Shown here in pieces: positions 14,896 to 59,739 of a stretch of DNA of 64,000 nucleotides (its first letter is position 1; each line of letters begins with the position of its first letter). The stretch spans positions 12,578,409-12,642,408 of the forward strand of contig OY987250.1 in the NCBI GenBank assembly GCA_963920765.1, given 5' to 3'. Under the pieces are notes generated by a model, which searched no databases, was not told the origin of the DNA, and was given only the letters and a program-made list of their open reading frames with translations. Source of the stretch: Ulota crispa. Its lineage: Eukaryota; Streptophyta; Bryopsida; Orthotrichales; Orthotrichaceae. The position numbers were made by a program, and so were the translations under genes.

Positions 14896-15245
14896 AACGC
14901 CATATTCGTTACATTGGGAAAACGCAGTTCCCAAATTGAACTTCACCTTAAACTCAAAAAGTTACTCTAAACCAGATTTGAAGGTATATTTAGTTTGAGT
15001 TAGTAAAGATTTTTTCCTCGCAAATTCCTCCTCTCAGGTAAGGGCACGTGTACCAAAAAAAAATGTTGCTTAAACCTATAGCTGGGTATAAGGTAATCAC
15101 CTTAACCCCTAAAGGACCATGGGGACAAAAATTGTCCCTGCTCCTACATGGCCCCGTGTATACGCTGTGACTGCCCCCTGCGTTTAAGGGTTAAACCTTC
15201 AAAAGTCCCAAATTTGAACATAGTTCCCAATTCAATGAATATGGC
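14896..15245. mobile_element. MITE, AACGCCATATTCGTTAA family, carrying a nested TTAA element
   Basis: Left end AACGCCATATTCGTTACATT and right end CCAATTCAATGAATATGGC form the terminal repeat. Interior blocks match the element at 15441 (TTTTTTCCTCGCAAATTCCT; ACCTTCAAAAGTCCCAAA). The block at 15102-15194 is absent from the 15441 copy and is bounded by TTAA, so it is a later insertion. Confidence 0.65.
15102..15194. mobile_element. TTAA-bounded mini-element (93 bp with both TTAA)
   Basis: TTAACCCCTAAAGGACCATG at the left; GGGTTAA at 15188-15194. Its left terminus is the same as that of the 925-bp element at 56757, so it looks like an internal-deletion derivative of that subfamily. Nested in the 14896 MITE. 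Confidence 0.6.
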
Positions 15246-15440
15246 AATTTGTTCACAAACCCAGTGCTTTGTCTGTCTCACCCAAAGCAATGTATTACCT
15301 GCGTTGAGAGATCAAGAGGACTCCTAGCCTAGTGCATGCTTGGGTCCATAATGCTCAACTTTTGGGGCAGCCTCGAGGCCCCTATGTCAGTAGTCACTGC
15401 CTTGTCCAGGCAAATCATGTTTTGCGCGCAATGATAACAT

Positions 15441-15697
15441 ACGCGCTATTCGTTAAATTGGGACAAACAGAGGTACCATTTTGTACTCCACCTTAAACCC
15501 AAAAAGTCACCTTAAACTAAATTCAAAGGTATCAGATTTAGTTTGAGCCACTAAGATTTTTTTCCTCATAAATTTCTCCTCTCAAGTGAGGACATGTATA
15601 CCAAAAAAAAATATTGAGCTCAATTTCAGGAGGCCTCCTAGAACCTTCAAAAGTCCCAAAATGTAAGCTTTGTCCCAATTTAACGAATAACTCGTTA
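15441..15697. mobile_element. MITE, CATATTCGTTAAATTGGG family, abutting the cysteine-rich peptide gene
   Basis: Left end ACGCGCTATTCGTTAAATT, right end AATTTAACGAATAACTCGTT, with the family interior between (TTTTGTACTCCACCTTAAAC; TTTTTTCCTCATAAATTTCT). Its right end lies exactly at the stop codon of the minus-strand peptide gene. Confidence 0.65.
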
Positions 15698-15931
15698 ACA
15701 GCTTTTGTCGGCTATTATGCAACGTCCATCATTAAAGAAGAAATCCTTGTGACATTTATACTTGCGGCGAAACCAGAAGTCGCACTCACAGCAGGGCACC
15801 TCATCGTCGCAGTATGACTCTATCTGTCCGCACCGTGACATGACAGCAGGGGTCATCACCATTACTAGAAGGAGCAGGAGCACCAGGCTTGATGACAGCA
15901 GTAACGACCGGGGAATCATGGCTGCAGCCAT
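15695..15931 (-). CDS. secreted cysteine-rich peptide, 78 aa
   Basis: Single-exon ORF from ATG at 15931. The in-frame TTG at 15940 is not a likely start, and a second ATG lies four codons inside. Residues 1 to about 32 form a classic signal peptide: basic IPRS, then a leucine/valine-rich core (LLLSSSLVLLLLLVMVM), then a small-residue cleavage region (TPAVMS). The mature part of about 46 residues has eight cysteines spaced C-x6-C-x5-CC-x-C-x9-C-x10-C-x6-C, so it should be exported and disulfide-bonded. A TATA box lies about 100 bp upstream. The last residue before the stop is the eighth cysteine. The family is not recognised; defence peptide, inhibitor or signalling peptide are all possible. 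Confidence 0.65.
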   Translation of the reverse strand: MAAAMIPRSLLLSSSLVLLLLLVMVMTPAVMSRCGQIESYCDDEVPCCECDFWFRRKYKCHKDFFFNDGRCIIADKSC

Positions 15932-16028
15932 GGACGACAAGAGCCACGTACTAAAAGGGTAAGAGAGACGCTCCCACTCTCAGCTCTCGTGCACACAACA
16001 CTGTATGAAGGTGGTGATCCCGTGCAGG

Positions 16029-16038
16029 AATATATACT
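16029..16038 (-). promoter_or_regulatory. probable TATA box of the cysteine-rich peptide gene
   Basis: Minus strand reads AGTATATATTCC, 98-107 bp upstream of the ATG at 15931. That allows a start site about 30 bp downstream and a leader of roughly 70 nt. Confidence 0.45.
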
Positions 16039-16136
16039 GGAGGAGTACAAGCTGTTTCCACGCTGGATGGATCTCCGAGTGAGTACACGCTACTCAGCTC
16101 TTACCCCATCAGTGGACATGATCAGCAAAAGCTCTC

Positions 16137-16802
16137 TAACTTGTTATTCACTAATTTGGGAAAACGATGGGTACCATTTTGTACCTCACCTTGATCTAAA
16201 ATTGCCACTTTAACCCTTAAAAGATTAATCCTGAACCCGTGGCACAGATTTAGGAGAGTGTGCACTGTTCATGTACAGCAAACAATTTGTGGCATGTGTC
16301 CAAGAGAGATAATATTCTTCTCAAAAGAAGGAAAAAGTCAATAGTGTATCTGCCCTCACAAAAAGGGCAGCAAGGACCTTGTACATCTTTTTACAAATTG
16401 GTGTTTTAAAAAATATGGAGGCATTGAAAGTAGCTACTTTTGGCATTTAGTGATGTGGCACATTTCTCTGACCACTTTCAAGAAAATAAATCTTTTTCCA
16501 CCCTTGGGGTGTGTTTTCGGCACTAAAAGGATGATTTTTGTCCTCTTGGATGGTTAGGGGTTAATTCATATTAAGGATGTCACTTGAAACCTAATTAATG
16601 AACTTCTATCCAAAATTTCAAAAATTAATGAACTTTCTGTCCAAAAAGAATGTATTTTTGGATGATATATATCTCATTTCATTGAAAAATAGTCAACGAA
16701 TTCTCAATTCAATGAATATGGAATTCTCTAGAAAAAAAAAAAAAAAAAAAACCTGAAATCCCTCTTTGTAAGCTTTTTCCCAAATTAACGAATAACGCGT
16801 TC
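16137..16802. mobile_element. MITE, AACGCGTTATTCGTTAA family, with nested TTAA element
   Basis: Left end AACTTGTTATTCACTAATTT, right end AAATTAACGAATAACGCGTT. The left interior (GGTACCATTTTGTACCTCAC) matches the family. The TTAA element at 16210-16564 is nested in it, followed by a poly-A run at about 16732-16750. Confidence 0.6.
16210..16564. mobile_element. TTAA-bounded MITE, subfamily A, copy 1
   Basis: 355 bp from TTAACCCTTAAAAGATTAAT to GGTTAGGGGTTAA. The interior matches, in opposite orientation, the element at 55800-56164: shared blocks include GAGGGCAGATACACT-type sequence, TTTACAAATTGGTGTTTTAA and GTGATGTGGCACATTTCTCT. No ORF. Confidence 0.7.
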
Positions 16803-16892
16803 TGTGGGAAGAGTTAGAAAACACCGCACATTCTTTTGGGCGATCGTACCAAACGAGAGTTTTGTGATGAGCTGAAATTGCATAAACTAATG

Positions 16893-17419: not shown

Positions 17420-17775
17420 TTAACCCTTAAAGGACAGATGGATCACCGTGGCTTGCCCTGCCTGTAGATTTCTACAATGTTTTGCACATGGGCACCAGTA
17501 GTATTGCTTCAAAAAGTTGGAAAAGTCAACAATGCATGATGCCCTCATGAAAATTGCAAGAAGGGTAGCTTGGGAGCTAACACCATGTTTCTAAATCTTA
17601 TCATAATTTGGGTTACAAAAAAATGAATGCATCTCAAGAGGTAATTTTTTTGTCTTCCATGATTTATGATCACTTCTAAAAAAAATCAGATGAAAAATGA
17701 CTTTTTTTTGAATCATATAATCTTTTTTTAGAGCCTGAGGACTTTTTTTTGTCCTCCTTGATGTTTAGGGGTTAA
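17420..17775. mobile_element. TTAA-bounded MITE, subfamily B, copy 1
   Basis: 356 bp from TTAACCCTTAAAGGACAGAT to TGTTTAGGGGTTAA. Shares interior blocks with 42676-43013 (ACCATGTTTCTAAATCTT, AATTTGGGTTAC) and, inverted, with 59385-59739. Non-coding. Confidence 0.7.
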
Positions 17776-18556: not shown

Positions 18557-19196
18557 GTAGTATGCTCTAAAATTGTCACTTTAACCCTTGAGCGCTCAGC
18601 ACAAGTTCACTCAAATCCAGACCCTTTGGAACTCATTCCAATCAAACTTTCACCTAAAAGGAATTCCCAAAAATTGACCGTACCAATTGGTAGTGAACAT
18701 AGGCCCGGAGCTCCAAAAAAAAGGACATATCCTTTCACTGTACCATTGAAAGATTATAATGGTTAAATAAGGAAATTTTTCAAAACCAAGAGGCCATAAT
18801 ATGGCCCCTTGGGCGCTCAAGGGTTAAGGATTGGTCTGATTTTTCATGGGCTCTTCAAGACATGAAGATTTTTTGTTTAATTTTTAAACAAAGGGAAATG
18901 GATGCCAAATGTAACACAATTTTTTTCATACTTTTTGAAGCACTATTGAATTGTTGATGAATTTTCAAAGTTTTCTGTAGTAGACACTTATTTGTGACTC
19001 CAAGTCTCCCATTAACCATTCCCCTACAACTTTGTGAAGAGATGGGTGAAACCCAAGAGTATGATTGGCTCTTGCAATAGAAAACACTTTTTTTTTTGTG
19101 ACTTGAAGGGGTCCATTCAATGAATACTTCATATCCTTTCTTGAGCTACCTATGTGGCGCATAATTTGAGAGAGTCGCAATTAGAGCATACTACCT
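18555..19196. mobile_element. element with AAGGTAGTATGCTCTAA ends, hosting a TTAA element
   Basis: Left AAGGTAGTATGCTCTAAAAT and right TTAGAGCATACTACCTT are inverted copies. The TTAA element at 18581-18827 is nested near the left end. The remainder is AT-rich and non-coding. Confidence 0.45.
18581..18827. mobile_element. TTAA-bounded MITE, subfamily C, copy 1
   Basis: 247 bp from TTAACCCTTGAGCGCTCAGC to GGGCGCTCAAGGGTTAA. Terminal repeat is about 17 bp with TTAA. Its closest relative by ends is 45176-45413. Confidence 0.7.
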
Positions 19197-25717: not shown

Positions 25718-27020
25718 ATGTCAGGTACACAGATGATCTGTCTTCTACAGAAGTCAAAGTGGAGGAGGACAAGGCCGTTCCTCTTCATGCTATTACAAAA
25801 TGCCTTGTACAACCCGAGCATGATTAGCTTGCTCAAAATGAGGTCTTGCTTGAATTGTTTCCGGTTGTGCACTCCATCATTTTTGCTTCCTGATGACCTT
25901 GGCTTTTGGGTTAAACCCCAATCTACCACGTGGTTCTCACATTTCTTTATGAACAAGTATGATGATGCCAGATGGGTTGAACTTTTCCGTATGAGGAAAA
26001 GTACAGTTTTTCATTTGGCTAAATTGTTGGCCTCTCAAATTTAGAGGCAAGACACAAATTATCAGGTAGCAATCTTTGGTGTTGTTAGGGTTGCTTGCGC
26101 TTTGTACAAGCTCACAAAAGGTGTGTCGTTCTTGACGTGTTTAGAGATGTTTGCCATTGGCAAGCACAATCTGTGCAGTGCTAAGGGACGTTGTTCATGC
26201 TATCAACAACACGCTCAAACACCAAATTAGTTGGCCTACATGTGATCAGCTACGTTTGACACAACAGAGGTTCCATGACCTCTGTGGATTACTTGGTGTG
26301 GTTGGTGCCATTGACGGCACTCACATCGCGATCGCAAAACCACGCTACGTCCCAACGGATTATTATTACTTCAAGTTAGGAGGTTACACCCTTAACTACC
26401 AAGCAATAGTGGACAGCGAAAAGCGGTTCCTTAATGTATTCTTTGGGATGCCAGGTTCTACAAACGATTCTTGAGTGCTGCGCAAGTTGACGTTGTATGG
26501 CTTGGCTACTCATAGCAATTTCTTTACCAACCAAGTGGGATCCGAGGGGTTCAGCCCTTACCTCATAAGTGATTTTGGATACCCATTGCTGCTGTGGCTT
26601 ATAGTGCCTCATTGGAGCAATGTTCAGATGTCCATGGCAGAGGCGGTCTTCAACAATAAACTTTGCAGAGGACGTTGTGTGGTGGAGAATGCGTTCGGCA
26701 CCCTTAAGCAAAGTTTCAGGGAGTTGATTTCTAAATCCAAGTTGCATGTTGCCTTCCTTCCAGATGTGATATTCTATTGTGTCCTTCTCCACAACGTATT
26801 GTTGGGGCAGTCACAGGAGGATGTGCAAACTCTTTTTGGTGTGTTACGAGCTGAGGGTTTGCAAGGGGAGAATGTCAGTGATGCTGCAGGCTCCTTTGAT
26901 GTTGCAATTGGAAATGAGGGTGGTGATGCAATTCCAGATACAGTTGGAACTGTATTGGCTATTCAAAAAAGGCAGATGCTTGGTGTTCATTTGGGTAACC
27001 AGAGGCTGCATATGCCGTAG
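25718..27020 (+). pseudogene. PIF/Harbinger (HARBI1-like) transposase, decayed
   Basis: Three consecutive open pieces (to 26044, 26151-26474, 26475-27020). Order matches HARBI1-like DDE transposases: an N-terminal region with WVELFRMRKSTVFHLAKLL, then the catalytic start GVVGAIDGTHIAI (first Asp, about 26306), YYYFKLGGYTLNYQAIVDSE with the second Asp, GMPGSTNDS, and a C-terminal ENAFGTLKQSFREL (catalytic Glu, about 26686) followed by VIFYCVLLHNVLL. Damage: TAG at about 26041, a one-base shift near 26163 and TGA at about 26472. In live elements this protein cuts and pastes the element, generally using TTA-type targets. It faces the minus-strand ORF1 across the retrotransposon. Confidence 0.75.
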
Positions 27021-27508: not shown

Positions 27509-28010
27509 TGTCGGGTTGAGAGGAGCGCGCCTTGGGAACACGCAGGGTGTCTTGCTGCGATCGTGCGTTGCCGACTGAAAACGTTGTCAATCTTGATCTT
27601 CTCTTCAAATCTTTAGTCTTCAGTCTTCCGTTGGCCTATCCTGTGGCTGGCTCTAAGGGTATAAGGGTCAAGGTAGGGATAAGAGCCCACTGGATACGGG
27701 ACGGGTAGATCGGGACAGCAGACACGAGCTGCCGTCCGTATGACGGGATCCTAAAATCAAATTCACGATCTGCTGGCCAAAACTCCAGATCGTGAGAACA
27801 GAGCAAGTCTCGACCATGTGGGTGATCAATCCCACTTCGTCACCACGACAATAAATGGGGTTAAGTTTGGTTTAACCCAAACTGCCCGCAACAAGGTTTA
27901 CAAAACAGAATGGAAATGAATTGACAAACGAGCCTCCAAAACCGGCTAGGAATAACAAAGCCACATCCCACACATACATAAAAAATAAACCCAAAACATT
28001 CCTCTTGAAA

Positions 28011-28066
28011 TCTTCATATCTTCAGATCTTCAAATCTTCATGTCTTCAAGTCTTCAAGTCTTCATG
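28011..28066. repeat. 9-bp tandem repeats in the LTR
   Basis: About six units of the form ATCTTCAAG / GTCTTCAAG in a row. The same tract is at about 36422-36477 in the other LTR. Confidence 0.6.
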
Positions 28067-29324
28067 TTTTAATAAAAACAATGGGGAAAATCACAAATAA
28101 CAAGTCCTAGAAAAGGCAGCAACCTTCTATCTAATGCCACAGATGGCTCAAAGATTCAAATGCTAAGTGTAATAGCAATTTGAAAAGCTCTCCTAACCTT
28201 CTAACATCCCTCTAAATTTCAACTCAATCTAAGATACTGTCCAAAAGTTATGCAAGTTCAAAGTAGAGGCTCTTCTTCCTCTTTACAAACTAAACACTGC
28301 CTCTAAAAACCTCTATAACTTTTGTTCTATACATCACCCATAGAAACGTGATATCAATTTAGAAAGATGATATCACTGGCTTCAATCCATAAAATTTGCA
28401 CTTCAAAACAAAACTTTGTCCGAAAGCTCTAGTCAATCAAAGTGTGGGTCTCAATTTTTTAGAGAGCACCCAAACCCGCAACTTCTACCCACTATAACTT
28501 CTTCAATAAAACTCCAAATGAAATGATTAAAGACAATTTGAAAAGCTATGACAACAAACTATCACTCCTAAAATTTTGAGAAGAAAATCTCATACTGTCC
28601 AAAAGTTGTAGCTCTTCAAAATCTCGGCTTTCTCCTAACAAAAGGGCAGCCACCTCCAAACCTTCACACTTCCATAACTTTCTCGTCCAAGCTTCAAACT
28701 TCAAGTTTAAAGACTTTCTAGAAAGCCAATAACAAGATAAACACTCTCTCCAAATCTTGTTGCAAAATGATATACAGATCATAAGTTATGGCTTGTCGAA
28801 GTCTCAGCCTTTCTTCATAGTTTGGCTTTTTGACTCCAAAATTCAAACACTCATAACTTTTGCATCACAACTCCAAATCAAACTTGCAAACTCATTTTGG
28901 AAAGGTAATCACACAAGGAACAACCTCCTCAAATTTCAATTCAAAATCATGTATACACAGAAAAAAATCTCCTCTCAAAGTTTCGGGATTTTTCCCTTTC
29001 TTCCCACCAACACTCATACACTAACTTCCAACAACTAAGGGATCTTTCCTCCACAATTTCGACCCTATCTAAGGTAGGGAGGTGGGGCACATCAGCCCAT
29101 GCTCCTCCTTATCCTAACCCCACCATAGATGCCAAAACCCTTTTCCTTTCACACCTTTCCCATTGACTTCTAAATCCTTAGTATTTTTATTCAAACAAAG
29201 GCAAAATATATGAGCCTTCCAAAATCTCTAGATAAACATATGAAAATGATTAAATTACAAAATAAACACCATCGTAAAATGGCCACGTGCTCTTGCGAGC
29301 ATATAATAGCGTCAAACGCTTGTC

Positions 29325-29500
29325 TTCAGTTGCCAAGTCGTGGACTTGGTTGGCTGGAAAAGCGGTCGTCTCTGGCCGCCCGCCGGTCCGGGTTCGAATC
29401 CCATCGAACTCGTCGAGCGGTGATGGCGGCTCACGGCTTGGCAGCTAGTGAGGCAGGAAATTGGCCCAGCCAACCCGCTACCTACCCCCCTGAGCTGTGC
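29325..29500 (+). promoter_or_regulatory. tRNA-like pol III promoter segment inside the LTR (antisense to the element)
   Basis: TGGCTGGAAAAGCGG (about 29350) resembles box A and GGTTCGAATCC (about 29391) is a textbook box B, about 40 bp apart as in tRNA genes and tRNA-derived SINEs. The flanks (CTTGGTTGGCTGG and CCCAGCCAACC at about 29466) are partly complementary. It lies on the plus strand, opposite to the retrotransposon. The same segment is at 37736-37911 and, decayed, at about 11700-11870. Confidence 0.5.
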
Positions 29501-29672
29501 ATGTGACAAGACGGCGCAGCGCATTGGAATCTATGGCCGCTGCGTTGTCACCAAACCGTGGTCCTCACCACGACCACCCCTTTTGCCTCAACTGTTGATT
29601 TATTGAAATCAACACAAATATAAAGAAATAACAAGTATTTACATGATGGAGGGAAGTCCATCAGGACATGCA

Positions 29673-29680
29673 CCCTCTCT
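29673..29680 (-). promoter_or_regulatory. polypurine tract
   Basis: Minus strand reads AGAGAGGG four bases before the 3' LTR start, the expected place for the plus-strand primer. It overlaps the pol stop codon. Confidence 0.45.
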
Positions 29681-32600: not shown

Positions 32601-33266
32601 CTCATCTGAAGAAGAAGCAAAAGCCTTTCCATGCATCAAAAGCATGTCTTGAAATTTCTTTTTCTCTGGCTTAGTCAGGAAACCATCTCCTCCAATCTTG
32701 AGGTTAGCTAGAGTCTCTTCGGTGAATTTGTGTCCAATTCTCTTTGACTCTCTCAAACTTGGCTCTTTTTCAGCTTGTTTGATGTGATCATCAGTGTCAA
32801 ATGGTAGCTGAGTAGCCACTGGCTTCACCTTCTTGTTCACAGTCTTGTACTTGGTATGTACTGCAGCTTCAGGTCTATATTCATCGATATTAGAAGAACA
32901 CAGCTTTGCCATTGCTGTGTAAATCTCATGATGCATTGCAGCTGTATGGACATCAATAAGACAATGAGTAGTCGGCTCTGCATCCTCATTTGTCTTCAAA
33001 TCTTGCAGAGTATGCAAGATATCATCTGGCATGCCACTTTCTTCATACACACCAGTAATGCTCTCATCTTCTTCAAGAACCTTCATTTTTTTTAGGTTTT
33101 TCTCCTTCTTTTTGATAAATCTTCTATGTACATGGTCCAAATCTTTGGCATCCATGAAACTCGCAAATCCACACTTTGTCACGCTCAAAAATCCACACTT
33201 GATAGCAGTATGTATATTGGGGAATTCTCTAGTATTGATATCCTTGGCACCCGTGGATCCCCACAT
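29679..33266 (-). CDS. retrotransposon pol: reverse transcriptase, RNase H, integrase (1195 aa)
   Basis: Intact. Reverse transcriptase about residues 270-450, with LPQGATNS and the catalytic FVDD at 395-398. RNase H about 555-680, with VTVDTSP (D562), RELWGALTALK (E604), LETD (D629) and IADMLSR (D673). Integrase zinc domain H-H-C-C at about 792-832 (HDTLWAGHRG ... CVVCQ); DDE residues D859 (WMIDLVAMP), D918 (RADRGELN) and E953 (NGKIERG). A GPY/F-type motif (KRWFGPYIV) follows near the C-terminus; no chromodomain is visible. It copies the RNA into DNA and inserts it. The frame is open upstream of this ATG and is -1 relative to gag, so it could be made by frameshifting as well as from this ATG. 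Confidence 0.92.
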   Translation of the reverse strand: MWGSTGAKDINTREFPNIHTAIKCGFLSVTKCGFASFMDAKDLDHVHRRFIKKKEKNLKKMKVLEEDESITGVYEESGMPDDILHTLQDLKTNEDAEPTTHCLIDVHTAAMHHEIYTAMAKLCSSNIDEYRPEAAVHTKYKTVNKKVKPVATQLPFDTDDHIKQAEKEPSLRESKRIGHKFTEETLANLKIGGDGFLTKPEKKKFQDMLLMHGKAFASSSDEIGCVQPSVVAPMVIFTVPHIPWDLKPIPVPRALLPKLVELLKEKTRMGILEPSMAPYSNRWFTVPKKSGALRFIQDMQPANKVTIRNKGSGPVVDEVAEAFAGHAIYSIGDLYSGYDQFQLAAQSRDLTTMKTPLGLVRMCTLPQGATNSVAHMQSAMNQILRDFVPEKTIPFVDDIPIKGCEENQRDLTVQSDGCRAFVSNHIHDVAQILGRLEEVNLTLSIDKSKFGVNEILVVGHLCGSYGRKPNPEKIDAIGRMKACSNITEVRRFLGACVFYHIWIPHFAHISEPLYKLLRKRTKFIWENEQNLAMEELKRILESPLVLKQVNYDCKRPVIVTVDTSPIAIGWAIGQDDEEGKRFAIRFGARILTERQRAYPQVKRELWGALTALKADRNYLIGAEVVLETDCLPLLGMIANCSSPDIAMLRWIAYIKSMNPVLVHIEGKKNSIADMLSRARYSNEDEMMGHEDVEDLLHGGYVVTIDAESSSIDTLPFKAELYEEKLRDIGLYLSTMKLQEGWTDKTFKDIRHQSYRYLLREGFLWKRAKRADEVPLRVVGDSKTKAEVLKEFHDTLWAGHRGIWATYTKIKERYWWKGLYKDVEEFVVSCVVCQLQSKVRHRDELHPTYPLAIHFQWMIDLVAMPNAMWGMKYLVLAREELSNFVEGRALRTKATENICRFILEDIFSRYGSIGRMRADRGELNATEAKEFFKRYGVQLKLTTAYNPEANGKIERGHPPIIHALVKACKGKPNMWPKLLPFALWADRTTHSTVTGYMPVELVYGQKPIMPAEEDIPTWVFLSWEDGISRERLLELRIQQLGRLSSDFDIALEKMKTARLSNKERFDKTHRLRTKQIREGDWVLVFDSTLEHQHSTVRKFAKRWFGPYIVMKVHTNGTYSLRELDGTSLRVPVAGKRIKAFRRSGKFHHEDLEEIFNPQEMESHERAQDKDEDSEDAEDNQDIHDEQTWHIPEDVQV

Positions 33267-33280
33267 CCCACGTGTGCCCT

Positions 33281-35869: not shown

Positions 35870-35899
35870 ATCAACAAACGCAATAATCGCCCCAAAGCT

Positions 35900-42096: not shown

Positions 42097-44913
42097 CTAG
42101 GACTTATTTGCTGGAGTGAATTTCAAGGAGACGCTATTGACACAATGCCTGGCATCAGTAGGGGTAGCAAATCCCTCGCCCTTGAACACATGGCCCAAGT
42201 GCCCTCCACAAGATGCACACGTAATCTCTATGCGACGCCCATCTGAATCACGCTGCAACCAAAAAAAATCAAAAGATCAAAAAATCAACAAATCAACAAA
42301 TCAAGATATCAATATTTGGTACCAATAGTGGAAGTTAGAATATTAGGTATTGAACTAAAAAAGGGTGGACCAACTATACAGCAAGGGACCCATTTTCTCA
42401 ACGATAACATGAAAGTTGAGTTACTCTATACTTGATCAAATGTGGAGATGCTCTAAACATGTCAATCTACACAAAAATCCAATTTCTAGTTGAATAAAAA
42501 CACATGAACACAAAGTACATAACATGAGATGAAAACAAAATTCATAGCTTATGAGTTTGAAATTTACTTCATTAGTAGGCATCAAAACTAGAACTTCTAC
42601 TGGAAGATAAAACTCTTGCATAATGTGTCACAATCTAGAAAGAAAACCAAAAAAAGAACTTTGACATTTTTGTTGTTAACCCTTGAATGCCCAACTGGTC
42701 ACCACATCTTTCCCTCTACAATAGCTCTACACAATAGCTCTACAATGTGGCAAGTGCCCACCCATTATGATAGCATTTCAAAAAGTTGCAAAAGTCAACA
42801 CTGGTAACCTCATGAAAATTGCAAGAAGGGCAACATGTGACCTAACACCATGTTTCTAAATCTTCTCACAATTTGGGTTACCTAAAAATAAAAGTGCATT
42901 TGATGAGGTTGTTATTTGCCTTTCATGATGCACCATGTACTTATGATTGCTTCTAAAAAAATTAGATGAAAAAAGGCTTTTGTTTCCATCTCACATAGTT
43001 GTTTAGGGGTTAAGGTATGTGCAATTGTGTCCCTTCTTAATATTAGGGGTACCAAAAACCAAGACTCTCAAAATACAACCCCTCCCCCTAATTTTCCACC
43101 CCCTAATTTTCCAAATGACTAGTAAAAGGAGTCTATAGGTAGTTATCTTAATCTACAATGGTGCTTCGTTAACATCAGCCTTTGTAACACTATTGAATAA
43201 GATCACAACCTCACTCCCCTATTGCTCAAAGCATGTATTATGAACTTGGTTAAGGTCAAGTGCTTGCATATGGTCAACATTTGCTTTTCATCAATGCCCA
43301 TTTTGACTCATCAATTAAAAGCATTTGATTAATGTACCAAAAACATGGGTAGGAAAGCACCTCCAAAGTTGCAACCACCAAAACTAGTGAAAGTAGTGCA
43401 AATGGAGTGTTTGTTTATGATCACTGCTTGGATAAGGTCAAAACTTTTTTCTAGCCCAAAGTGTTGACCTTATCCAAGCACCACTGTACTGGTTGTGTTA
43501 AAATTCAGCTTGGACCTCATGTTACGAATTTGAAATGGCGATTCTCAGATTGCCTAGAAAGACCCTAGGAGCAAAAGCTGAACCCTGACGAACTCCAATC
43601 CAACTTCAAAGACCTTCGTCGCATACACAGGAAGAAACGCAATGCAACTTTACGCTTTGACATGCACCACAGAACGTGCTTTATCAATATAGAAATTTCT
43701 ACCAAAAAGATTTCAAATCAAATCTTCAGCTAATTTGAACTGATTTTTCTTTGAATTTTGATTGTTTTTCTTGTATTTTTCTGTAAATTTGTGTTTTGGT
43801 CTTGGTGGTGAAAGGATGAAACTTGTTGAGAGGTATTCGACTATGGAGGGGCTGAGGAGCACTTACAGTCTCGTCAATGGCGCCGGGGATGCCCTCAAAG
43901 AAGGCGGGCCATCCACAGCCAGAGTCAAACTTGGTGGTGGACTTGTAGAGCGGCGATTTGCAGCCTGCGCACTCGTACACGCCATCCTCTTTGGATTTAT
44001 TGTACTCACCGGTACCAGGAAATCTGCTCATCGCCAAAATTCCCACCACAAACTGTCACAACTCACTCCCTTCTCCAAGAACCCTACAAACCCCACAAAC
44101 CCTATAAACCCTATAGGGAAAATTTCATGGATACCCCTGAAGTTTACCATATTTCACAGATACCCATCGCTGCTTTTTCAGAAATTTCACAAATACCCTT
44201 GGTCCAACATTTTTAGGCATTTGTTATGTTGTGCATGTCACTTCCTTCTCCCTCTTTGTGCGCACACACTATTTCTCTTTTGTTATGTGTGCACAAAGGA
44301 AAGTGGCATGCACAACAACAACAAAAAAACGTCTATTATTTTGGGTCCAAGGGTAACTATTAGTGAAAGTTCTGAAAAAGCAGTAAGGGGTATCTATGAA
44401 AATATGGCAAACTTCAGGGGTACCCATGAAATCTTCCGAACCCTATAAACCCTACAAACTCTACAAACCCTCTCCAGCAAAGCTTTGCATTCCATTGAGG
44501 TTTGGTATGACCATTGACAGACAGGTACAGATACCATGAAATCTTCCCAACCCTATAAACCCTAGAAACCCTCTGCCAGCAAGCTTTACATTCCATTGAG
44601 AATTGGGTATGACAATTGACAGAGAGAGGTGCAGAGATGGCGCTTACTCGGTGCCCTTCTGGCGCAGGATGCGGAACTGCTCGGGGCTGAGGATGGCGCG
44701 CCACTCCTCATCAGACTTGGTAACACTGGTGTTGGGACCTCCTCCGGTGGAAGCCATGGCGAGAGCGCGGCGGGAGAGCGGGGGGCGGAGGGAGAGGCGA
44801 GCGGGGCGGAAGGAGGCGAGGGAGAGGGAGAGGGCTTTGGGGGAGGCGAGGGAGAGGGCGAGGGAGGAGGAGGAGACGGCGGTGGTGGTGAGGGTGCAGA
44901 GCAAGGCTGCCAT
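42097..44913 (-). CDS. MSRB: plastid-type peptide-methionine (R)-S-oxide reductase (MsrB), 192 aa, three exons
   Basis: Exons 44648-44913, 43867-44023 and 42097-42252 (579 nt with stop), all GT-AG. It reduces the R form of methionine sulfoxide in damaged proteins. The N-terminus is a Ser/Ala/Leu/Arg-rich stretch with few acidic residues (about 1-50), typical of a chloroplast transit peptide. The SelR domain follows: [42 protein letters not shown] (first zinc Cys pair CAGC), [14 protein letters not shown], then in exon 3 [15 protein letters not shown] (second zinc pair CASC) and [11 protein letters not shown], with the catalytic cysteine in RHC. All core motifs are present. Intron 2 (1614 nt) holds a TTAA element and a hairpin; intron 1 (624 nt) holds another MITE and a tandem duplication. 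Oxidation-defence role in plastids is inferred from the family. Confidence 0.92.
42676..43013. mobile_element. TTAA-bounded MITE, subfamily B, copy 2 (MSRB intron 2)
   Basis: 338 bp from TTAACCCTTGAATGCCC to GTTTAGGGGTTAA, matching the interior of 17420-17775. Confidence 0.7.
43426..43479. repeat. short inverted repeat in MSRB intron 2
   Basis: GCTTGGATAAGGTCAAAAC and GTGTTGACCTTATCCAAGC, 19-bp arms with one mismatch and a 16-bp loop. Possibly a tiny MITE remnant; CACTG occurs just outside each arm. Confidence 0.5.
44117..44437. mobile_element. MITE in MSRB intron 1
   Basis: Left GGAAAATTTCATGGATACCC then CTGAAGTTTACCATATTTCA; right TGAAAATATGGCAAACTTCA then GGGGTACCCATGAAATCTTCC. Terminal repeats of about 50 bp with a few differences. 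It lies between AACCCTATAAACCCTA runs. Confidence 0.65.
44438..44636. repeat. tandem duplication of about 100 bp with telobox-like motifs (MSRB intron 1)
   Basis: Two diverged copies (about 44438-44536 and 44537-44636) share AACCCTATAAACCCTA, CAGCAA(A)GCTTT, CATTCCATTGAG and GACAATTGACAGA-type blocks. AAACCCTA matches the plant telobox. Confidence 0.5.
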
Positions 44914-45175: not shown

Positions 45176-45413
45176 TTAACCCTTGAGCGCCCCATTGACA
45201 ATATATTGTTGATGGGGCTCACAACTTCATCTCATTTAAAAAAAAGAACTGTACGGTGAAAACAGCCATGGTTGGTCCTCATCAATGGAGAATGTAATTC
45301 TTTTTCAAATCCTACAGTCACTTTTTCTGAATGTAATTTTCCAAGCTGTGGTGGCCATTAAACCCCCCATTTTCTCCTAAATCCAAAAAAAACTCTGGGC
45401 GCTTAGGGGTTAA
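45176..45413. mobile_element. TTAA-bounded MITE, subfamily C, copy 2
   Basis: 238 bp from TTAACCCTTGAGCGCCCC to GGGCGCTTAGGGGTTAA, 260 bp upstream of the MSRB start codon, so within its promoter region. Confidence 0.7.
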
Positions 45414-47507: not shown

Positions 47508-47932
47508 TTAACCCTTTAAGGTCTATGGTTGATTTGGGAAGTGAGCATGCATACAACAAGCTACCTTTGCCACCGTATTTCTTAATGAGGAATTCTTTTT
47601 CGTTCTTAAAGGGCCAAATTTCTCATTTTTTACCATCAGCAACCATATGGAACTCCAACCTAACTTTCCCCAAACTTGTGTCATTCAGTATATGCCACTC
47701 TTTTGCATTTAGGGTTGCCTTTCTCCAATGATTTACATATTTCCAGCCTACATGCATGCAATTTTCAACCCTTACACCACATACTGGCACGGATTTTCAT
47801 GGAATTTGTCCCATTACATTCATTTTCAAATTCCCCACACCCATCCCCTTTCATCCATACCCAAATTCATTGTCAAACTTTAGCTACCAATGATAAATGT
47901 GTCTAATCGACCACCAAACCTTAAAGGGTTAA
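47508..47932. mobile_element. TTAA-bounded MITE, subfamily E
   Basis: 425 bp from TTAACCCTTTAAGGTCTATG to ACCTTAAAGGGTTAA. The interior is unlike the other copies; non-coding. Confidence 0.65.
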
Positions 47933-48406: not shown

Positions 48407-51400
48407 CTATTCTTCGGATTCCCACTCTTCTTCGTACTCCTCAATAGTTTCAATGTCTTCCTTTGAGTCAGCCTTTTCAGCTTCCTCTCTTGCTCGAGCT
48501 TCTTCCACTGCAGCTTTCCAATCTATTCGCACAAAGTACACAAATTAAGTAACACAAACGAAAAGATCACGTGAAAAACCCATACACAAGTTCTTAACAA
48601 GGTTGTCACTAGAATTTTCTAAAACTCCTCTCAAACAGTCTAATTCTATTGAAGACCTTGTCGTATACTTGCTGAGCTGCAAGTTCAAAATTCTCTAGCA
48701 AGCAACTCAAAGCATGCGCAACGTTTACAACAAACTCTTCAGTAAAATTGTCTTAACTTTTCTGCGAAAGTCTATTTCTCCATGATAATGCGAGATAGCT
48801 TGGGATTGAAGTATAAGTTTGTTTTCTAAAAAGTTTATATTGAGCACTAACACGTGGTTCAACTAGGTGGTCCAATAGGCGATTAGGTCTCTCTATCTAC
48901 ATGTGTTGAAGTGCTTAGATTTTTTTACAATGTACTAAAAGATGCACTTTGTTAAGAGCTTTCCATTGACGTAAAAATCTTACAAACATGTTATTTTTAG
49001 ATATTACGCCTTTGAATTACCAAGGAGAATTCTACTGAAGACCTTGCTAAAAATTGCAAAGGAAGTACAGTAACAGAAAAGAGGTGGGGTATGAGAAATT
49101 ACTGGTACCTGGTGGGAATATTCTCTCCACAGCTTGAGTCAAATCACCGGGCTGTCTCTCAGCTTTGATCAAAAACCTTTGCCAGTGCTTGGCAGTGGCA
49201 AAATCCACACAAAGCCCTTGGTCCGCCATTTCGGAGGTGACTCGTAACACACCGTCAAACACCGTCTCTCGTGCAACGGCAGCTCTGGAGAGAAGGGATG
49301 TCATGATGCAGTGGTACAGTGGCATGTCAGGTTTCATTCCAGCGCCTTTCATTTCGTCGTAGCAAACCAAAGCTTTCTCTGGGTACGAGGCGGATGCCCA
49401 TCCGTGCACCAGCGTTGTGTAGGTTTGCAGGTTCGGTTGTACACCTTGTTGCTTCATTTGCTCAATTGTTTCTGTTGCTTTCTGCTCACAAACGCCCCAT
49501 CCACCACGTGTTATTGGATAACAATAATTCTTACATTGTAAAACAAAACAAAAAGCTCCAAAAGGTTGTACTTTTTAGCAAGTGGTGTAAGCACGATTTA
49601 AACTACTGCTGCGCTTTGAATAAAAAAAAAAGTAGTTGTCTACTGTGCCTTTCTAATGCTCTACAACCTCCCATATTGAAATTGCATAAGTCATCAAATT
49701 GTAAAAAAGGCTTGATCTCTCCCCAGCTCTACAGTGATCTCCAAAATCACTCAGTCCTGCATATGTGAAAAGCCTTAAAATAGTGCAAAATTTTATCCAC
49801 TACCTTTCAAGTTTCTGGCCTTCAACGTTATAGCATGTTCAAAGCCTTTGTATCTTAAGCAGTTTTTCGATATAAAAAATAATAATAAAAATTTAACAAA
49901 AAGGGATAAGGCAAAATGTTCTCAGAGGAAAAAAAACAATACCTGCATGTCCCCTGCCTTACAACACGCATTGGTAAAGGAGGTATACGAATGAACGTCT
50001 GGTGTCAAGCCTTCTTGACGCATTTTTTGCATCATGTCAGAGGCTTCCCACATGTCCCCTCTCTGAGCCCACCTGTAACCACCAGACTCCACGCTAAGTC
50101 TACTTTGAAAAGTAATAGAAACTTTCAAAAAACATATCTTTAATGGTGCAAAAAGTAGGGTACCATTGCTTCTTTCTATTAAGCATGTTCTATAACAGCT
50201 TCTCATTGATATACATCTTTTACGTTTAGATATGAAAAAGAAATGAGCATTCCCTTGATACACATGAAGAAAAAATAGCTGGAAAAATAGCTGGAAAAAC
50301 AGAAGGAAAATTTGTAAGACATACCCATCAAGGAGAATGTTGTAGATGTACTGATTCATGGGAACACCTGCAGAGGTCATCTCCGTGGTCACTGCAACAG
50401 CACTTTGCATGCGTCCGGCTTTGCAACAAGCCTTGAGAAGAGACGCATAGGAAATCACGTCTGGCTTCAGCCCTATTTCTTTGATGCGCTTGAAATACTT
50501 GAAAGCCAAGCCAATCTCTCCCTCGCAAGCATACCCCTCCATCAGAGTAGTGTAACTGCGTTCGTTTGGATGCACTCCAGCCAACGCCATTTCATCAATA
50601 ATAGATGCAGCCCTGTCCATCTATGCACATCTCTCACCGGTTTAGCGGTGATTCCAATGATAAGAATCCTACGCTCCACAATGCCCCGAAAGCAGCCATT
50701 TCCATATCTATGGAATTTAATGATAAATCATTTAAGAAGCCTCATAACAATAAGCACAAATAGGAAAAGAAAAAAATCATAACCTACCTATATTTTTGGA
50801 GTGTTTAAGTATATTTGAAAGTTACTATTGACAAAAGACAAAGATATAAGAGTGTAGATTGCTACCGCACCATACAAGTGAAGTAAGTTATTGAGCAATA
50901 TAATGACTCAACTGTATACCCTTCACCCGCCAAACTACATTATATACTACCTAGACGTATCTACATACTAGTGAACTCGTATGTAGGGACTATCAAATGA
51001 CCTTCCAGCTAACAATGTCCTATGGTGATTAGCTACCTCAAAGTCGTTAACCCCTGAACGTCCCAAACGCCCTTTGCGGCCGTACGTATGGCCGTATGTA
51101 CAGACGTATTTGAGCTATTCTGAGGGCTTTCCAAAAAAAATTATGCATCCACCATCATACAACCCTTCAATATGTATGGTTGTAACACTTGATTTCTAGC
51201 TGATTCAAACTTCTGTATATTGGTTGCAATCGTATTTGGTACCGTATCTCCAGAGCCCAAGGGATGTTTAAGGGTTAATTGAATTGACTTTAAGCAACCT
51301 AATGACAACAACTATTAACCTACTTTCTGTTATTTAACAATTTGAGGGTTAACCTTAGAGCATTACACTTCCCAATACAACTACTGCGAGCCGCCATAAT

Positions 51401-54400
51401 TCTAAAGCGATCATTGTTTACAAGCATCTTTGTTCAAGCATCTTTGAAGAACACATATATCATCAGCTTTTGGATGTATTTCATGCATACCGGTAGTATG
51501 AGTGGGTGTTACCTCTTCCACGGTAATTACCTAAAAAGGTGGAGTTTTCTTTTGTTCACCAATCTCGATTTAACATCCCATTTGCAAGCATCACTAAACC
51601 TCACTACAAAGCAGGTTACTAGAACAGCAAAATTATGCACATGTAGTTTATGAAAGCAGCTGAGAATGGACAAAAGGGCAAAAGTTGAACCTGGCGAGCT
51701 TGAACTAAGCCATGCATGATGACATTATAGGTAGTGGCACTAGGGCGGCACCCAGCCAGCTTCATATCCCGCACGGTTTCAAGCGCCATCCTGACATCGC
51801 CAACCTTCATGAAGCCGTCAATGATGGTGGTGTAGGTTTGCAGTGTAGGAGGGTAACCTCCTCTTTCCATGCGAGCCAGCAGCTGCACAGCTCGTGTCAT
51901 TTGTCGATTTTTGCAAAAAGCATTCACCAGAATGTTATACGTCACCCCATCCGGTTTAATCCCTGCTTTGGACATGTCTTCAAACACAGAAAATGCGTTT
52001 ATACAATCTCCCAACTGTACATATCCATCAATTATCATCGAAAACGTCTTGCGATTGTGCAAGATTCCTTGATTCTCCATTTCCTTGCAAATCTCCAATG
52101 CCTTGGTCATCTTCCCAAGCTGTGCAGTGTCCAAGGACGAACTGTCAAAATAGCTCACATTGCTAAGTCTGCTGAAACTTCAGTACAATTTTCACGGTTT
52201 CTGTGGCAGTCAAAATAAAAAAAACTCTCTTTGAAAGTACTGCTGAAGATATCCACATTGCACACATCTAGATAAAGATTTCAGCAGGGGGTGTGGATGT
52301 ACCTTAGAGTATAAATTTATGAGACAACCGTAGCTGACAACAGTTGGAAACATGCCCGTGTCCTGTGAACCGAAATGAAAAGCGCCCCATGAGTACCAAT
52401 TGCTTGGTTTTGCGCAAAACATTTAATAAGAATATACTGCGTTATAAAAGACGTGTTGATTTAGTCGTAATTCTGTTATGACATTAAATTTATATTAATA
52501 TTATTAAGTTAACATCGTAATGAATTATTTCAGCATCAATTCAACATGACGATTATAAGAAGCTAAAGCCTATGAAGCAAAAAAAATAAAAAAAAAGAGC
52601 ATCAACTTGTGAAGGGGGGGGGGGGTGGCAACTTGCCTTCAATTTGTTAAAAACACCCAAGCACTGGACCTCAGCACGAGCATGAGCATAGCCGTCCAAC
52701 ATCATGTTGTAAAGACCAAGTGTTGCTTCCAGCCCATGTTCCTCCATATCTGCCACTAAAGCTTCTGCCCGCTCCATGTTGCCTGCTTTGCTGCACTTCC
52801 CACATAATTAGTACAAAAACATTTGGAGATACGTGAAAATCCTTCCTTTCAAGCATAAGCAAATAGCCAGAGAGGCAAGAAACGACATCAAACAAGAGCC
52901 TTGATTCTAAAATTTTACCAGTGAGCGTTAATGATGTTGTTGTAAATAACACCATTATAATGACATTTCTCACTCAGTGCTCTCTGGAACCACATCTCTG
53001 CAGCACTTCAACATAAAACAAGCTTGTAAATACAAGGCAAGCAATATGCACAATAGAAAGAAGATATCAAAATTTTCAAGCAATAAAAACATGGTTACCA
53101 AAGTGGTAGTTTCTATCTGTTAACTAGTGTGTGAACTCAAGTAACCATGTATTGTAAGGCAGAGATACATACTTGACATCTCCTAATCTTCCATATCCCG
53201 AAATAACCACACTGAAAGTTGCTGCATTCGGAACGATACCATCGGCTTCCATCTCCTCAACACAAGCCACTGCTCCTCGCAAATCCCGAGCCACTGCATA
53301 CGCATGAACCAAGCTGGTTTTCCAACAACAAAAGTATATTTACTACGAAGCAAAAAAAGGCATAATTCCATAAAAAACAATCACATACCCAGAGAATTAC
53401 AACAAGGTACAGAACTGTAATGTTGAACTTACTTGGTGTAAGCGTGGACGTTTGGGTCAATGCCTGCAGCTCGCATGTTCTCAAACGCAGCTCGAGCGCT
53501 GTGCTTATCCCCACGTTTTCCATAGTAGTTTACTAGCAAGGTATAATCTCGACGCTTCGGCTGAAAAAAATACAAAAAATTCTTCAGTACAATGATATCG
53601 AGAAACCTGTGAATGCAAAGGTCAGGAAGCTTAAATAAAAGCTGCAGGAAACGAAGGAAATGGAAGGGTAAAGGATAGTTTTTCTAACCTTTTCAATCCT
53701 ATTGAAAGAACCAACAACCTTGCGAGCATCTTTAGGGTGATCTTCAACCAATTTTCGAAAGTCGTTCGAGGCTTTCTCTCGCTCTTCACGCCATTCTGAT
53801 TGAGGCTCTCTTTCCTGTCAAACGTGATTTCAAGTCTGTTTTAACCCATTAACGTCTGATCGACCATTTCCTAGTGGATTTCGACTCTTTTCAGTTCGTA
53901 GAGGGAGCATGTCAAGGAATTTGATGACGTGGCAAAGGAGTTCGTAGAGGGAGCATGTCAAGGAATTTGATGACGTGGCAAAGGGGACGGGTCTGGGGAA
54001 TTGGAAAGTGAAGAGTTTAGGACAATAACCATGCCAATCTGAGGTGGCATGTGGCTAGAGGGTTGAAAAAACTAAAAGAGTACGGACTGAAAATACACCA
54101 ATAAATGCAAAAAGATGGCCATAACACCTAAAGAGTGAGCAGAATTCATGATGCATAACACTAAACCCTGCAAGATACTTCCATCTGTACGGTCAGATCT
54201 GTGATAGACATCTGTATTCAATAGTTTTAAAATTTGCCCCAAATGGCCATACAAAACAAAGGATTGCCCACCCCAGAATCGACCAAAGACGTTAATGGGT
54301 TAAGAGGATGTGCTCAAACTCTTTGGATGATGAAACCCTAACCCTAACACCATCAAACTGCAGAAGGAATTTGCAGAAGGTTGAGTTACAGAGAAAGTAG

Positions 54401-55799: not shown

Positions 55800-56164
55800 T
55801 TAACCCCTAACCATCCAAGAGGACAAAAATCATCCTTTCAATGCCAAAAACACACCTCGAGGGTGAAAAAAGATTTTTTTTTCAATTTTTTTTATTGAAA
55901 GTGGTTAGAGAGATGTGCCACATCACTGAATGCCAAAAATAGCTGCTTTCAGTGCCTCTATATTTTTTAAAACACCAATTTATAAAGAAATGTACAAGGT
56001 CCTTGTTGCCCTTTTTGTGAGGGCATGATACACTATTGACTTTTCCTTCTTTTGAGGAGAATATTATCTTGCTTGGACACATGCCACAGGCTATTCACTA
56101 CCCATGAACAGTGCACTCTCCTTGGTCTGAGCCACGGGTTCAGGGTCAGTCTTTTGAGGGTTTA
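55800..56164. mobile_element. TTAA-bounded MITE, subfamily A, copy 2 (inverted)
   Basis: Starts TTAACCCCTAACCATCCAAG; right end reads GGGTTTA instead of GGGTTAA, so slightly decayed. Interior is the reverse complement of 16210-16564. Confidence 0.65.
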
Positions 56165-56756: not shown

Positions 56757-57681
56757 TTAACCCCTAAAGGACCATGGACTTTTTCTTGTGAAAAGACACT
56801 CAAAACTGCCACCTCTATGGCAAAGAGTAAAAAAGTTTGAAAATCGGGCATTTTGCATATTTGATTGTAGGATCTTGTGCTAGACTACTATAAGAATGTG
56901 TCATACAAAACTCAATAAATTTTGACCACACAAATTGGAAGATATTTGCATTTAAAAAGTAAAAAGCAACTTTTTTTGCACCTTGCTTGACTAGATTTTT
57001 TAACTTTGAACATTTTTAACTTAAAATTTTTGCACCATAGAGTTTGGAATTCTATTTTTGCATGGTGGGAAGTTAAATTGGGAATCTTGAGAAATTTTTT
57101 AAAAAAAGAATACTTAATTTTCATTCTTTAAAAAAATATTAGGTAGAAGAAGGTATGAGAATGAACAAAAACTTAAATTGCTAATAACCCTGCAATGGAA
57201 TTGAAACGCAATAATCCCAATGGTGAGATTGTTCTAGAAAGCAAACTTCACCCTCTCCAACAATTTTTTTGAAAAATGTTAAACTTGCATTCAAAAATGA
57301 AGTTTACAAGTTATTTTTCAAGAAGATGCTTGAGTTGCCCAAAAAACAAGATTGTCCATAACTTTCTCATAACTAGTCCAAATGGAATGATTCAAAGCTT
57401 CAGACGTACACAACAATATAATCTATAAGAAAAAAATTAATGCTTTTTTCAAGTTTTTATAAGAATCTTTTTTGCTGCCCCTAGTCCCCATATTTGTGCT
57501 TATTTGGGCATAACTTTTTCTCCCTGGCATCAATTAAAATAAAAATTATATTCCCTAGAAGCTAATTTGTTTTTCTATCTCCAAAAAAAGTTTCAAAAAA
57601 TTAGGACAAAAATTGAGGCCGTAGGTACCTGCCTGAAATCCCATTTGTCCCTTGTAGGGACAATGGTCCTTTAGGGGTTAA
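56757..57681. mobile_element. TTAA-bounded element, subfamily G, 925 bp
   Basis: Longest of the TTAA set: TTAACCCCTAAAGGACCATG at the left and CAATGGTCCTTTAGGGGTTAA at the right, a terminal repeat of about 20 bp with TTAA. The interior is AT-rich with no transposase frame. Parent type of the 93-bp derivative at 15102. Confidence 0.7.
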
Positions 57682-57836
57682 ACTTTTGATTTATAGTTGG
57701 GTATAGAATGACTGGACTAGATTATGTGAATACTTGTTCAACTTTCTAAAAAATGAGGGAATGTGCTGAAGGTTCCATATTGGAGGTATGCTAAATTTTC
57801 TTAGCAAGACGCTTAGGGATTAATGGGTTGACAATA

Positions 57837-58203
57837 CACTAAGAGCATAGCCAATGCACAAAAAATGTTAGACGCAACTTGCATTTTAGTGAGAGGGCTT
57901 GGAGTTGAGGCCTCCACTGCTTTGCCGCAACCAATTCTAGATAATGTAAAGAGACAATACAAGCTTCCATTCATGCTATTGTGAAGGTCTTTTTGGCCCA
58001 CGCTAGAATCCATAAAAGGAGAAGAAGAAATTGAAAAAGTGATACTAAAAGATGCAACACAAGAGGTAATGATGCAATGTGTTAGCGTTAGTGTGTGAGA
58101 AGAATGTTTCAACAAAGGCGTAAAAAATTGGCTTGTTTATTAGCCTTGCAATTCACTTTTCAGGTACTCTCTCCAGGGAAAGCAATGGAGATGCTCTAAG
58201 TGC
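57837..58203. mobile_element. MITE with GAGCATCTCCA-type ends
   Basis: Left CACTAAGAGCATAGCCAATGC; right GCAATGGAGATGCTCTAAGTG. Its minus strand has an unconvincing 100-codon frame. Ends resemble those of 18244-18556. Confidence 0.5.
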
Positions 58204-58699
58204 TGGTTCTCCCCCAAACATTGCATTGAAAGCATGTCATGGGAGTGGCTGGGCCATAACATAACATACATAGAGATGTGGACAAAAATATCCATTCCTC
58301 ACTCAAATCCCTTCCATGTAATTAATTTTTTACCAAATCTAAAACCAATTACATATTTTAAAAGCCTATTAAGGGGGAACACATGCATTAAATTTTGAAA
58401 AGTAGAGTATTCCAACTCTATGCCTTTAACCCATGCCAAGTGCAATTTTGCATTATCAAATACGCTACATTCATCAACTTTTAGTCTTCCACCAACAATT
58501 TTTTTTAGCTTTTAACCACCTTTTAAATCTTGAAATTGCCTCAACTTAAGCAAGCCTCTAGTAGATAGAAAGAGGGATACAATGCACTAAATTTTGACGT
58601 GAATCAAATTACTAAGGAGAAGTGTTAATAAAAAATCATTTAGAAAAATCATCAAATTATGATTCGAATGCTTTTAAAGTCAATACAATTCCATAGTTA
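58204..58699. other. intergenic, no gene seen
   Basis: AT-rich, no defined feature. Confidence 0.4.
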
Positions 58700-58842
58700 C
58701 ACTAGAAGAAATCCTACAATAAACGACTAGTTCACAATGACTACAAATGCCCTAAATGACTGTAATTGAGTCATTATATAGTTGTTTAAGACATTTGCAA
58801 TCGTCATACACCAATCATTTAGGATGATTTTTTCTTCTAGTG
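58700..58842. mobile_element. CACTA-type MITE, 143 bp
   Basis: CACTAGAAGAAATCCT at the left, TTTTTTCTTCTAGTG at the right; flanked by TTA on both sides as a 3-bp target duplication. Non-coding. Confidence 0.75.
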
Positions 58843-58912
58843 TTAGTTTAAAACCAACACATTTCCACTCCATTATTAGAACTTTCAACACATGTAATTC
58901 TAAATTTTAGAT

Positions 58913-59365
58913 TGGGGATTCATATGTCTACCACACCCTTTCAACTATTCTACCACACCCTTTCAACTATTCTACCACACCCTTGGGGTAAATTTTAGAT
59001 TTCTACCATCAAGTAGTCGAATTTGAGAATTTGGAATTCAGATTTGGACTTAGAGACCTTGATTTTGTCTAGAACCATAAAAAGAAGTTGTAATTGAACA
59101 ACACCCAATGAAAAAGCTTAGCTTGGGGGAAAAGTATAGTAATACTTTTCCCCCAACTAAAGCTTTTTCATTGGGTGTTGTTCAATTACAACTTCTTTTT
59201 ATGGTTCTAGACAAAATCAAGGTCTCTAAGTCCAAATCTGAATTCCAAATTCTCAAATTCGACTACTTGATGGTAGAAATCTAAAATTTACCCCAAGGGT
59301 GTGGTAGAATAGTTGAAAGGGTGTGGTAGAATAGTTGAAAGGGTGTGGTAGACACATCAATCCCC
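58913..59365. repeat. long near-perfect inverted repeat (arms about 220 bp)
   Basis: Left arm from GGGGATTCATATGTCTACC to GGGGGAAAAGTAT; right arm from ATACTTTTCCCCC back to GGTAGACACATCAATCCCC. The two arms match almost base for base with only a few bases between them at about 59139. Each arm carries three tandem copies of about 22 bp (CTACCACACCCTTTCAACTA). A transcript would fold into one long duplex. Confidence 0.8.
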
Positions 59366-59384
59366 TTTGAGATTTAGTGAAATA

Positions 59385-59739
59385 TTAACCCCTAAACGTT
59401 GGCCCAGACAAAAATCGTCCTTTGCCTCCAAAAAAAGCCATTGTGGCCCAAAAAAAATTGATTTTGGTCTGATTTCTTTTCAAAAGTGATCATAAATGCA
59501 TAGTGCACTATGGAAGGAAAAAATAAAATTCATCAAATACTCTCATGAATTCAGGTACCTCAAATTCAAAATCATTGAATTAGGTCTCAAGTTGCCTTTA
59601 TGGCAATTTTCATGGAATCAACATGTACTATTGACTTTTGCAATTTTCTGAGGCAATATTATTGGTGACTAGCTCCAAAATATTGTAGAAGGCAAAATCA
59701 GGGTAGGCCACGATGACCCAGCCAACTCTTAAGGGTTAA
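59385..59739. mobile_element. TTAA-bounded MITE, subfamily B, copy 3 (inverted)
   Basis: 355 bp from TTAACCCCTAAACGTTGGCC to CTCTTAAGGGTTAA. Interior is the reverse complement of the 17420 type (for example AAAAGTGATCATAAATG against CATGATTTATGATCACTT). It lies 20 bp from the long hairpin. Confidence 0.7.

Follow-up and report, generated by a model that had tools for sequence, protein, structure and literature searches.

The subject of this analysis is a 64,000-nucleotide stretch of the Ulota crispa genome (contig OY987250.1, positions 12,578,409 to 12,642,408; hereafter the window), which contains eleven short elements that begin TTAACCC and end GGGTTAA, together with a twelfth that retains one intact end. 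A sequence-only reading had listed these elements by their starts, had given the eleven a length span of 93 to 925 bp and the twelfth, at 55800, a degenerate end, and had taken the whole set for a piggyBac-like signature in a plant; all eleven are indeed present, each with its right end in place, the measured lengths agree, and the right end of the twelfth reads GGGTTTA rather than GGGTTAA (Table 1). The eleven elements sum to 4,027 bp, i.e. 6.3% of the window. We conclude with high confidence that they are piggyBac miniature inverted-repeat transposable elements (MITEs) in a moss, with CCC...GGG inverted repeats at a duplicated TTAA, most likely moved by the piggyBac transposases of longer elements with like ends. 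That the host is a land plant, and a moss, is borne out by two LEAFY exon matches at C4:16277526-16279258, the second of which agrees at 100 of 102 residues with PDB 4bhk (E 1.5e-69), which we take to be Physcomitrella LEAFY; the match to 2vy1, presumably the Arabidopsis protein, has an E value of 4.8e-49.

The pairing of the ends far exceeds chance: sequences simulated from the window under a first-order Markov model, with a motif spacing of 60-1000 bases, contained on average 0.235 TTAACCC...GGGTTAA pairs and at most 2 in any of 200 runs, versus the 11 observed, and when all 64 trinucleotides were tried after TTAA, CCC ranked first with 11 pairs and the next best had 4. The first seven bases of each end are fixed by the search motif, so that their conservation, including the CCC termini of all 22 ends, holds by construction; neither the T at position 9 nor the A at position 11, constant in 22 of 22 ends, is imposed in this way. 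Elsewhere in the consensus of the 22 ends, T, C or A occurs at position 8, and the prevailing base is A at position 12, C or G at position 13, G at position 14 and C at position 16. Termini of piggyBac elements begin CC(C/T). Nothing beyond TTAA is consistently duplicated at the window elements, as had been claimed. A further pair at 12191, spanning 57 bp, was discounted as a chance occurrence, its inverted repeat being only 4 bp long.

Table 1. TTAA-bounded elements of the window (positions within the 64,000-nucleotide stretch; L numbers are loci elsewhere in the genome)
Feature	Coordinates	Strand	Ends	Remarks
93-bp MITE	15102..15194	.	TTAACCCCTAAAGGACC / TTAACCCTTAAACG	three unoccupied paralogs
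355-bp MITE	16210..16564	.		85% identity to 55800, one family
356-bp MITE	17420..17775	.		wider family of 16210, 42676, 59385; unoccupied paralog in L027
247-bp MITE	18581..18827	.	TTAACCCTTGAGCGC	terminal 39 bp like L026 element end
338-bp MITE	42676..43013	.		relative of 17420
238-bp MITE	45176..45413	.	TTAACCCTTGAGCGCCCC / TTAACCCCTAAGCGCCC	unoccupied paralog in L023
425-bp MITE	47508..47932	.	TTAACCCTTTAAGGTC / TTAACCCTTTAAGGTT
232-bp MITE	51047..51278	.		full-length relative in L033, 83%
463-bp MITE	53841..54303	.	TTAACCCATTAACGTCT	46-bp tandem duplication inside
MITE of 16210 family, opposite orientation	55800..56164	.	right end decayed, GGGTTTA
925-bp MITE	56757..57681	.	perfect 15-bp inverted repeat	nested in another high-copy repeat
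355-bp MITE	59385..59739	.		67% to 17420

The interiors had been sorted into at least seven unrelated subfamilies, a count that stands insofar as the 12 elements do form seven groups, but some of the interiors are related. Five elements (16210, 17420, 42676, 55800 and 59385) make up one family with 59-85% identity across the matched parts, and 47508 and 53841 have in common a weak 197-bp stretch (63%); the other elements outside the five-member family stand apart. Next to the last element of the table lies a foldback (58914-59365) with a near-perfect 224-bp arm (219 of 224 positions paired, 4-nt loop) and repeated CTACCACACCCTTTCAACTATT units, which stops 19 bp short of the start of the element.

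Unoccupied sites bear directly on the target duplication. The flanks of the motif pairs found in 270,507 bases (the window and loci L021-L042) were joined and, for those of the 27 pairs with sufficient flank, searched for; 12 of these pairs lie in the window, namely the eleven elements and one spurious pair, in which TTAACCC at 58426 was matched to the 59739 right end and which gave no junction match. Empty paralogous sites came to light for four of the 11 elements, and for three of them the junction carries a single TTAA, so that the comparison of occupied and empty sites suggested earlier, run here on paralogs within the genome, came out as piggyBac transposition predicts. The paralog of the 17420 site has one TTAA and 90% identity across 135 bp, and that of the 45176 site one TTAA and 88% across 128 bp. 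For 56757, 40 of 41 genome matches to the joined flanks cross the junction unbroken (91-94% identity, lengths within 4 bases of the query), and all five of the unoccupied junctions fetched from these 40 have one TTAA. The flanks of this element belong to a different high-copy repeat family, of which 40 copies, all scored at 91-94% identity, were recovered. At the left of the array, a cluster of related repeats at 14902-16213, one pair of which has inverted TTTGTCCCAATTTAACGAATA-like arms (15441-15695), is the source of one unoccupied paralog of the 15102 site.

These empty sites cannot separate a TA from a TTAA duplication, because TA lies within TTAA. The same elements could thus be read as Tc1/mariner (Stowaway-like) MITEs with ACCC...GGGT ends that duplicate TA and prefer TTAA, since TA plus ACCC...GGGT and TTAA plus CCC...GGG give the same occupied and the same empty sequences; expressed Tc1/mariner elements have, moreover, been reported in a moss (PMC7466625). 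The earlier argument that the extra T and A would not be conserved at TA-flanked mariner ends is therefore weaker than it was made to appear, and the deciding evidence is the transposase found between the ends rather than the extra T and A. Like ends bound piggyBac transposases elsewhere in the genome and matches to the piggyBac profile PF13843 are abundant (the genome-wide profile search covered PF13843, not the mariner, Kolobok or Sola families), while the base that precedes TAACCC in the window is T in 17 cases, A in 5, C in 7 and G in none, all of which makes the mariner reading very improbable.

A 3-bp duplication of TTA or TAA, as made by PIF/Harbinger (Tourist-like) elements, is the least probable of the alternatives we weighed. 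PIF/Harbinger elements duplicate 3-bp TWA and have equal inverted ends, whereas a 3-bp reading of the window elements leaves unequal termini, ACCC and CCC. The sole match to a cut-and-paste transposase among the seven window open reading frames scanned is a PIF/Harbinger-type DDE_Tnp_4 (PF13359) fragment at 26475-27020, a circumstance that would favor such an origin, but nothing ties the fragment to the ends, TTAACCC being absent between 18581 and 27872.

PiggyBac transposases are plentiful in this genome, as the sequence-only reading had proposed to check. The search of 274.8 Mb in 157 contigs returned at least 120 PF13843 matches, all above the curated cut-off and with a best E value of 1.3e-73, from the 116 of 528 first-look candidates that were scored; these are matches and not copies, since some copies give two. 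No PF13843 match was found in 14 control genomes. None of the 120 listed matches falls inside the window, in keeping with the statement that it holds no transposase of this type, and the nearest one on the same contig lies ~135 kb to its left. Ten of the 120 lack an internal stop, and the stop-free pieces from L031, L024 (two), L026, L023 and L039 match PF13843 in six of six cases. The 389-aa frame in L031, which is free of stops, is similar to piggyBat (9c0f) at E 2.6e-24 and to T. ni piggyBac (6x67) at E 7.6e-20, and its TVDE, TDNFF and GVDIVDQ motifs align with the T. ni segments that bear D268, D346 and D447, the catalytic triad named in PMC7351741. Seven aligned transposase pieces all have the first and second Asp; five of them extend as far as the third, which four have and which is replaced by Asn in L043. 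Inspection by eye picks out Cys/His-rich tails, which may correspond to the C-terminal cysteine-rich domain of piggyBac, in L021, L024 and other loci. Two piggyBac matches, each split into two pieces without internal stops (C1:1180709-1181995 and C8:19570986-19572215, with open frames of 563 and 472 aa) might be host genes derived from piggyBac. Among viral contigs, considered as possible vectors, 20 stretches fit a search pattern and none was confirmed as a relative of the transposase.

The link between these transposases and the ends was sought in 20 regions of 10 kb centred on the best PF13843 matches. A control for paired ends, in which matches were scored out of 13 bases at 109 overlapping centres in the window and at the 20 transposase loci, separates the two sets only moderately: given the density of MITEs, it is not unusual for an arbitrary position to be flanked by matched ends. 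We therefore used alignments that define element boundaries instead. The clearest case is that of the transposase-bearing elements in L021 (1863-6890) and L030 (1897-6923), which align over 5029 bp at 90.5% between unrelated flanks and span from TTAACCCCTCATCGCC (TTCACCC in L030) to GGCAATGAAGGGTTAA, the alignment overrunning GGGTTAA by one base; their termini, set by alignment rather than by motif, are likewise CCC. L024 and L034 have a common right end at which the alignment halts two bases before GGGTTAA (L024) or GGGTTGA (L034), with TTAACCCCTAAATGCC at the left of both, and L035 and L036 have a common right end reading TTAACCC, decayed to TTAAGCT in L036. In L023, L037 and L038, which carry related transposases, a common 412-642 bp halts together at TTAACCCCTAAARG ends; this right end (TTAACCC) lies 2,848-3,095 bases from the start of the domain, and the bases outside it are unrelated. 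Matched ends 5.1-6.3 kb apart occur in L025, L026, L029 and L039.

Several window MITEs resemble particular transposase-bearing elements at their ends. The terminal 39 bp of 18581 are 85% identical to the end of the 5.1-kb element in L026, the first 83 bp of 53841 are 70% identical to the left end of the element in L039, and 45176 has ends similar to the pair that surrounds the transposase in L022 (TTAACTCCTAAGCGCCCC / TTAACCCCTAAGCACCCAG). The end of 56757 matches the right ends of L037, L023 and L038 over 402, 285 and 221 bp of the MITE, respectively, at 60-62% (E 1e-18 to 4e-9); we read this match as a right end that the most abundant MITE type examined has in common with one lineage of transposases, although it may alternatively reflect an ancestral MITE insertion at that spot. 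A related question is whether another superfamily that targets TTAA, Kolobok or Sola3, could account for the MITEs, given that both are generally known to duplicate this tetranucleotide and that a Kolobok/T2-MITE system has been treated in Xenopus (PMC6004289). The ends of the window elements match those that bound piggyBac transposases, within the scope of the profile search given above, thereby rendering this third alternative also very improbable, and somewhat more so than the mariner one.

Several observations weigh against the piggyBac interpretation or qualify it. The three paralogs of the 15102 site (71-79%) have four bases, TAGA, TAAA and TAAA, where a single TTAA would be expected, and when eight joined sites were searched for in the genome, seven yielded no row spanning the junction, with 40 of 4,897 first-look candidates scored. 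At least 9 of 13 bases matched at 7 of 20 transposase loci versus 6 of 109 controls, and at least 8 at 13 of 20 versus 29 of 109, the separation being sharper only at 11 or more (3 of 20 versus none of 109). Seven of the 20 loci (L023, L027, L031, L032, L033, L036 and L038) are without a good pair of ends, the left end of L035/L036 was not recognised, and the ends TTCACCC in L030, GGGTTGA in L034 and TTAAGCT in L036 are decayed. The notion that the window MITEs are plain internal deletions of elements in the 20 transposase loci was rejected, as their likeness is terminal only (39, 83 and 221-402 bp). Lastly, 110 of the 120 listed PF13843 matches carry stops, and no element was seen moving. The single-TTAA empty paralogs and the transposases bounded by like ends nevertheless uphold the original reading of the elements as piggyBac.

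The MITEs of the window were most likely mobilised in trans by piggyBac transposases. In the mechanism that we propose, longer elements with like ends would encode piggyBac transposases that bind the terminal repeats of the MITEs, excise them and reinsert them at new TTAA sites, thereby duplicating TTAA. For piggyBac itself, the transposase is described as synapsing both ends, cutting via a TTAA hairpin intermediate and targeting unpaired TTAA (PMC7351741). Several transposase lineages with differing end subtypes might each drive their own MITEs, which would explain why the ends are so similar across several groups of interiors. We infer that the enzymes responsible for moving the MITEs were these transposases and not others; the MITEs presumably arose by internal deletion or by capture of sequence between piggyBac ends.

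The scale of the phenomenon extends well beyond the window. The end pattern TTAACCCYTAAAGGNCC has 12,288 matches in the genome (6,157 + 6,131) and none when reversed, and the wider pattern TTAACCCNTNANNGNCC has 32,602 matches (16,298 + 16,304) versus 14 for the reversed control. Since the wider pattern fits 8 of the 22 window ends, a crude extrapolation gives ~90,000 ends or 45,000 elements; extrapolating from the density in the window gives ~47,000 elements, and from the remaining 206,507 bases, which are mostly transposase-centred and hold 15 pairs that were not vetted, ~20,000. For the 925-bp family of 56757 the genome yields 4,426 first-look candidates, and the 47 scored matches comprise the window copy, 39 full or nearly full copies (90-94%) and seven partial ones (68-88%); 34 of the 39 span positions 1-925, TTAA to TTAA, and the other five nearly so. 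Judging by match coordinates, some adjoining matches of this family share four or five bases, which is expected if one element entered the TTAA at another's edge.

Elsewhere in the window lies a Gypsy-type element at 27509-38085, whose long terminal repeats (LTRs) of ~2.16 kb are 8,411 bp apart and which carries a frame for reverse transcriptase, RNaseH and integrase at 29679-33266 on the minus strand. The LTRs differ at 5 of 2,166 positions, with some of these mismatches falling within the edge overrun; so few differences suggest that the element was probably inserted recently.

When set beside known systems, the moss elements resemble T. ni piggyBac (6x67/6x68) in having a DDE_Tnp_1_7 transposase with three catalytic Asp and a TTAA target, and the termini of T. 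ni piggyBac start with CCC, as those of the moss do. They depart from it in their host, in the modest similarity of the 389-aa frame (E 7.6e-20 only), in that most copies are broken, and in the length of the transposase-bearing elements with recognised ends, ~5.0-6.3 kb. By sequence, the closest solved structure is that of piggyBat of Myotis lucifugus (9c0f, E 2.6e-24), a bat element described as active (PMC11707139). Short non-autonomous MITEs of two coral genomes are likewise discussed together with piggyBac and TTAA (PMC2872659); the moss differs in being a plant, in having several end subtypes and in carrying its end pattern more than 32,000 times. Another non-flowering land plant, the fern Ceratopteris, has repeats labelled PiggyBac, the repeat table giving 1,230 elements and 122 kb, with neither ends nor a transposase in the passages concerned (PMC6890710). 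According to a 2021 paper (PMC8086355), whose citations include Bouallegue et al. 2017, plants are among the organisms that have piggyBac-like elements, and in the plant papers covered here piggyBac figures as an introduced tool, as a list entry or as a single row in a table of repeats. Searches of open-access papers turned up no description of piggyBac from a moss, and earlier reports from plants or mosses may exist; the one paper that brought together piggyBac, mosses and transposable elements (PMC10619864) was set aside, as both occurrences of the term read "piggybacking".

The superfamily and the MITE strategy are thus already known, and it is the host, and the scale in a land plant, that are unusual. 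We suggest tentatively, and with rather more doubt than conviction, that piggyBac has been a leading cut-and-paste system of this moss lineage, in which many diverged transposase lineages with differing end subtypes have spread, by extrapolation, some 20,000-47,000 MITEs. If true, this would be a swarm hitherto undescribed in land plants, one that may have started with a horizontal transfer and may not have died out. Best known from insects and bats, piggyBac has been investigated chiefly in animals and has found use in engineering; a moss whose genome gives at least 120 transposase matches and has piggyBac-type ends in the tens of thousands would broaden its natural host range, would supply plant-resident transposases and ends for seamless-excision work in plants, and would raise the question of how piggyBac came to enter a moss and flourish there.

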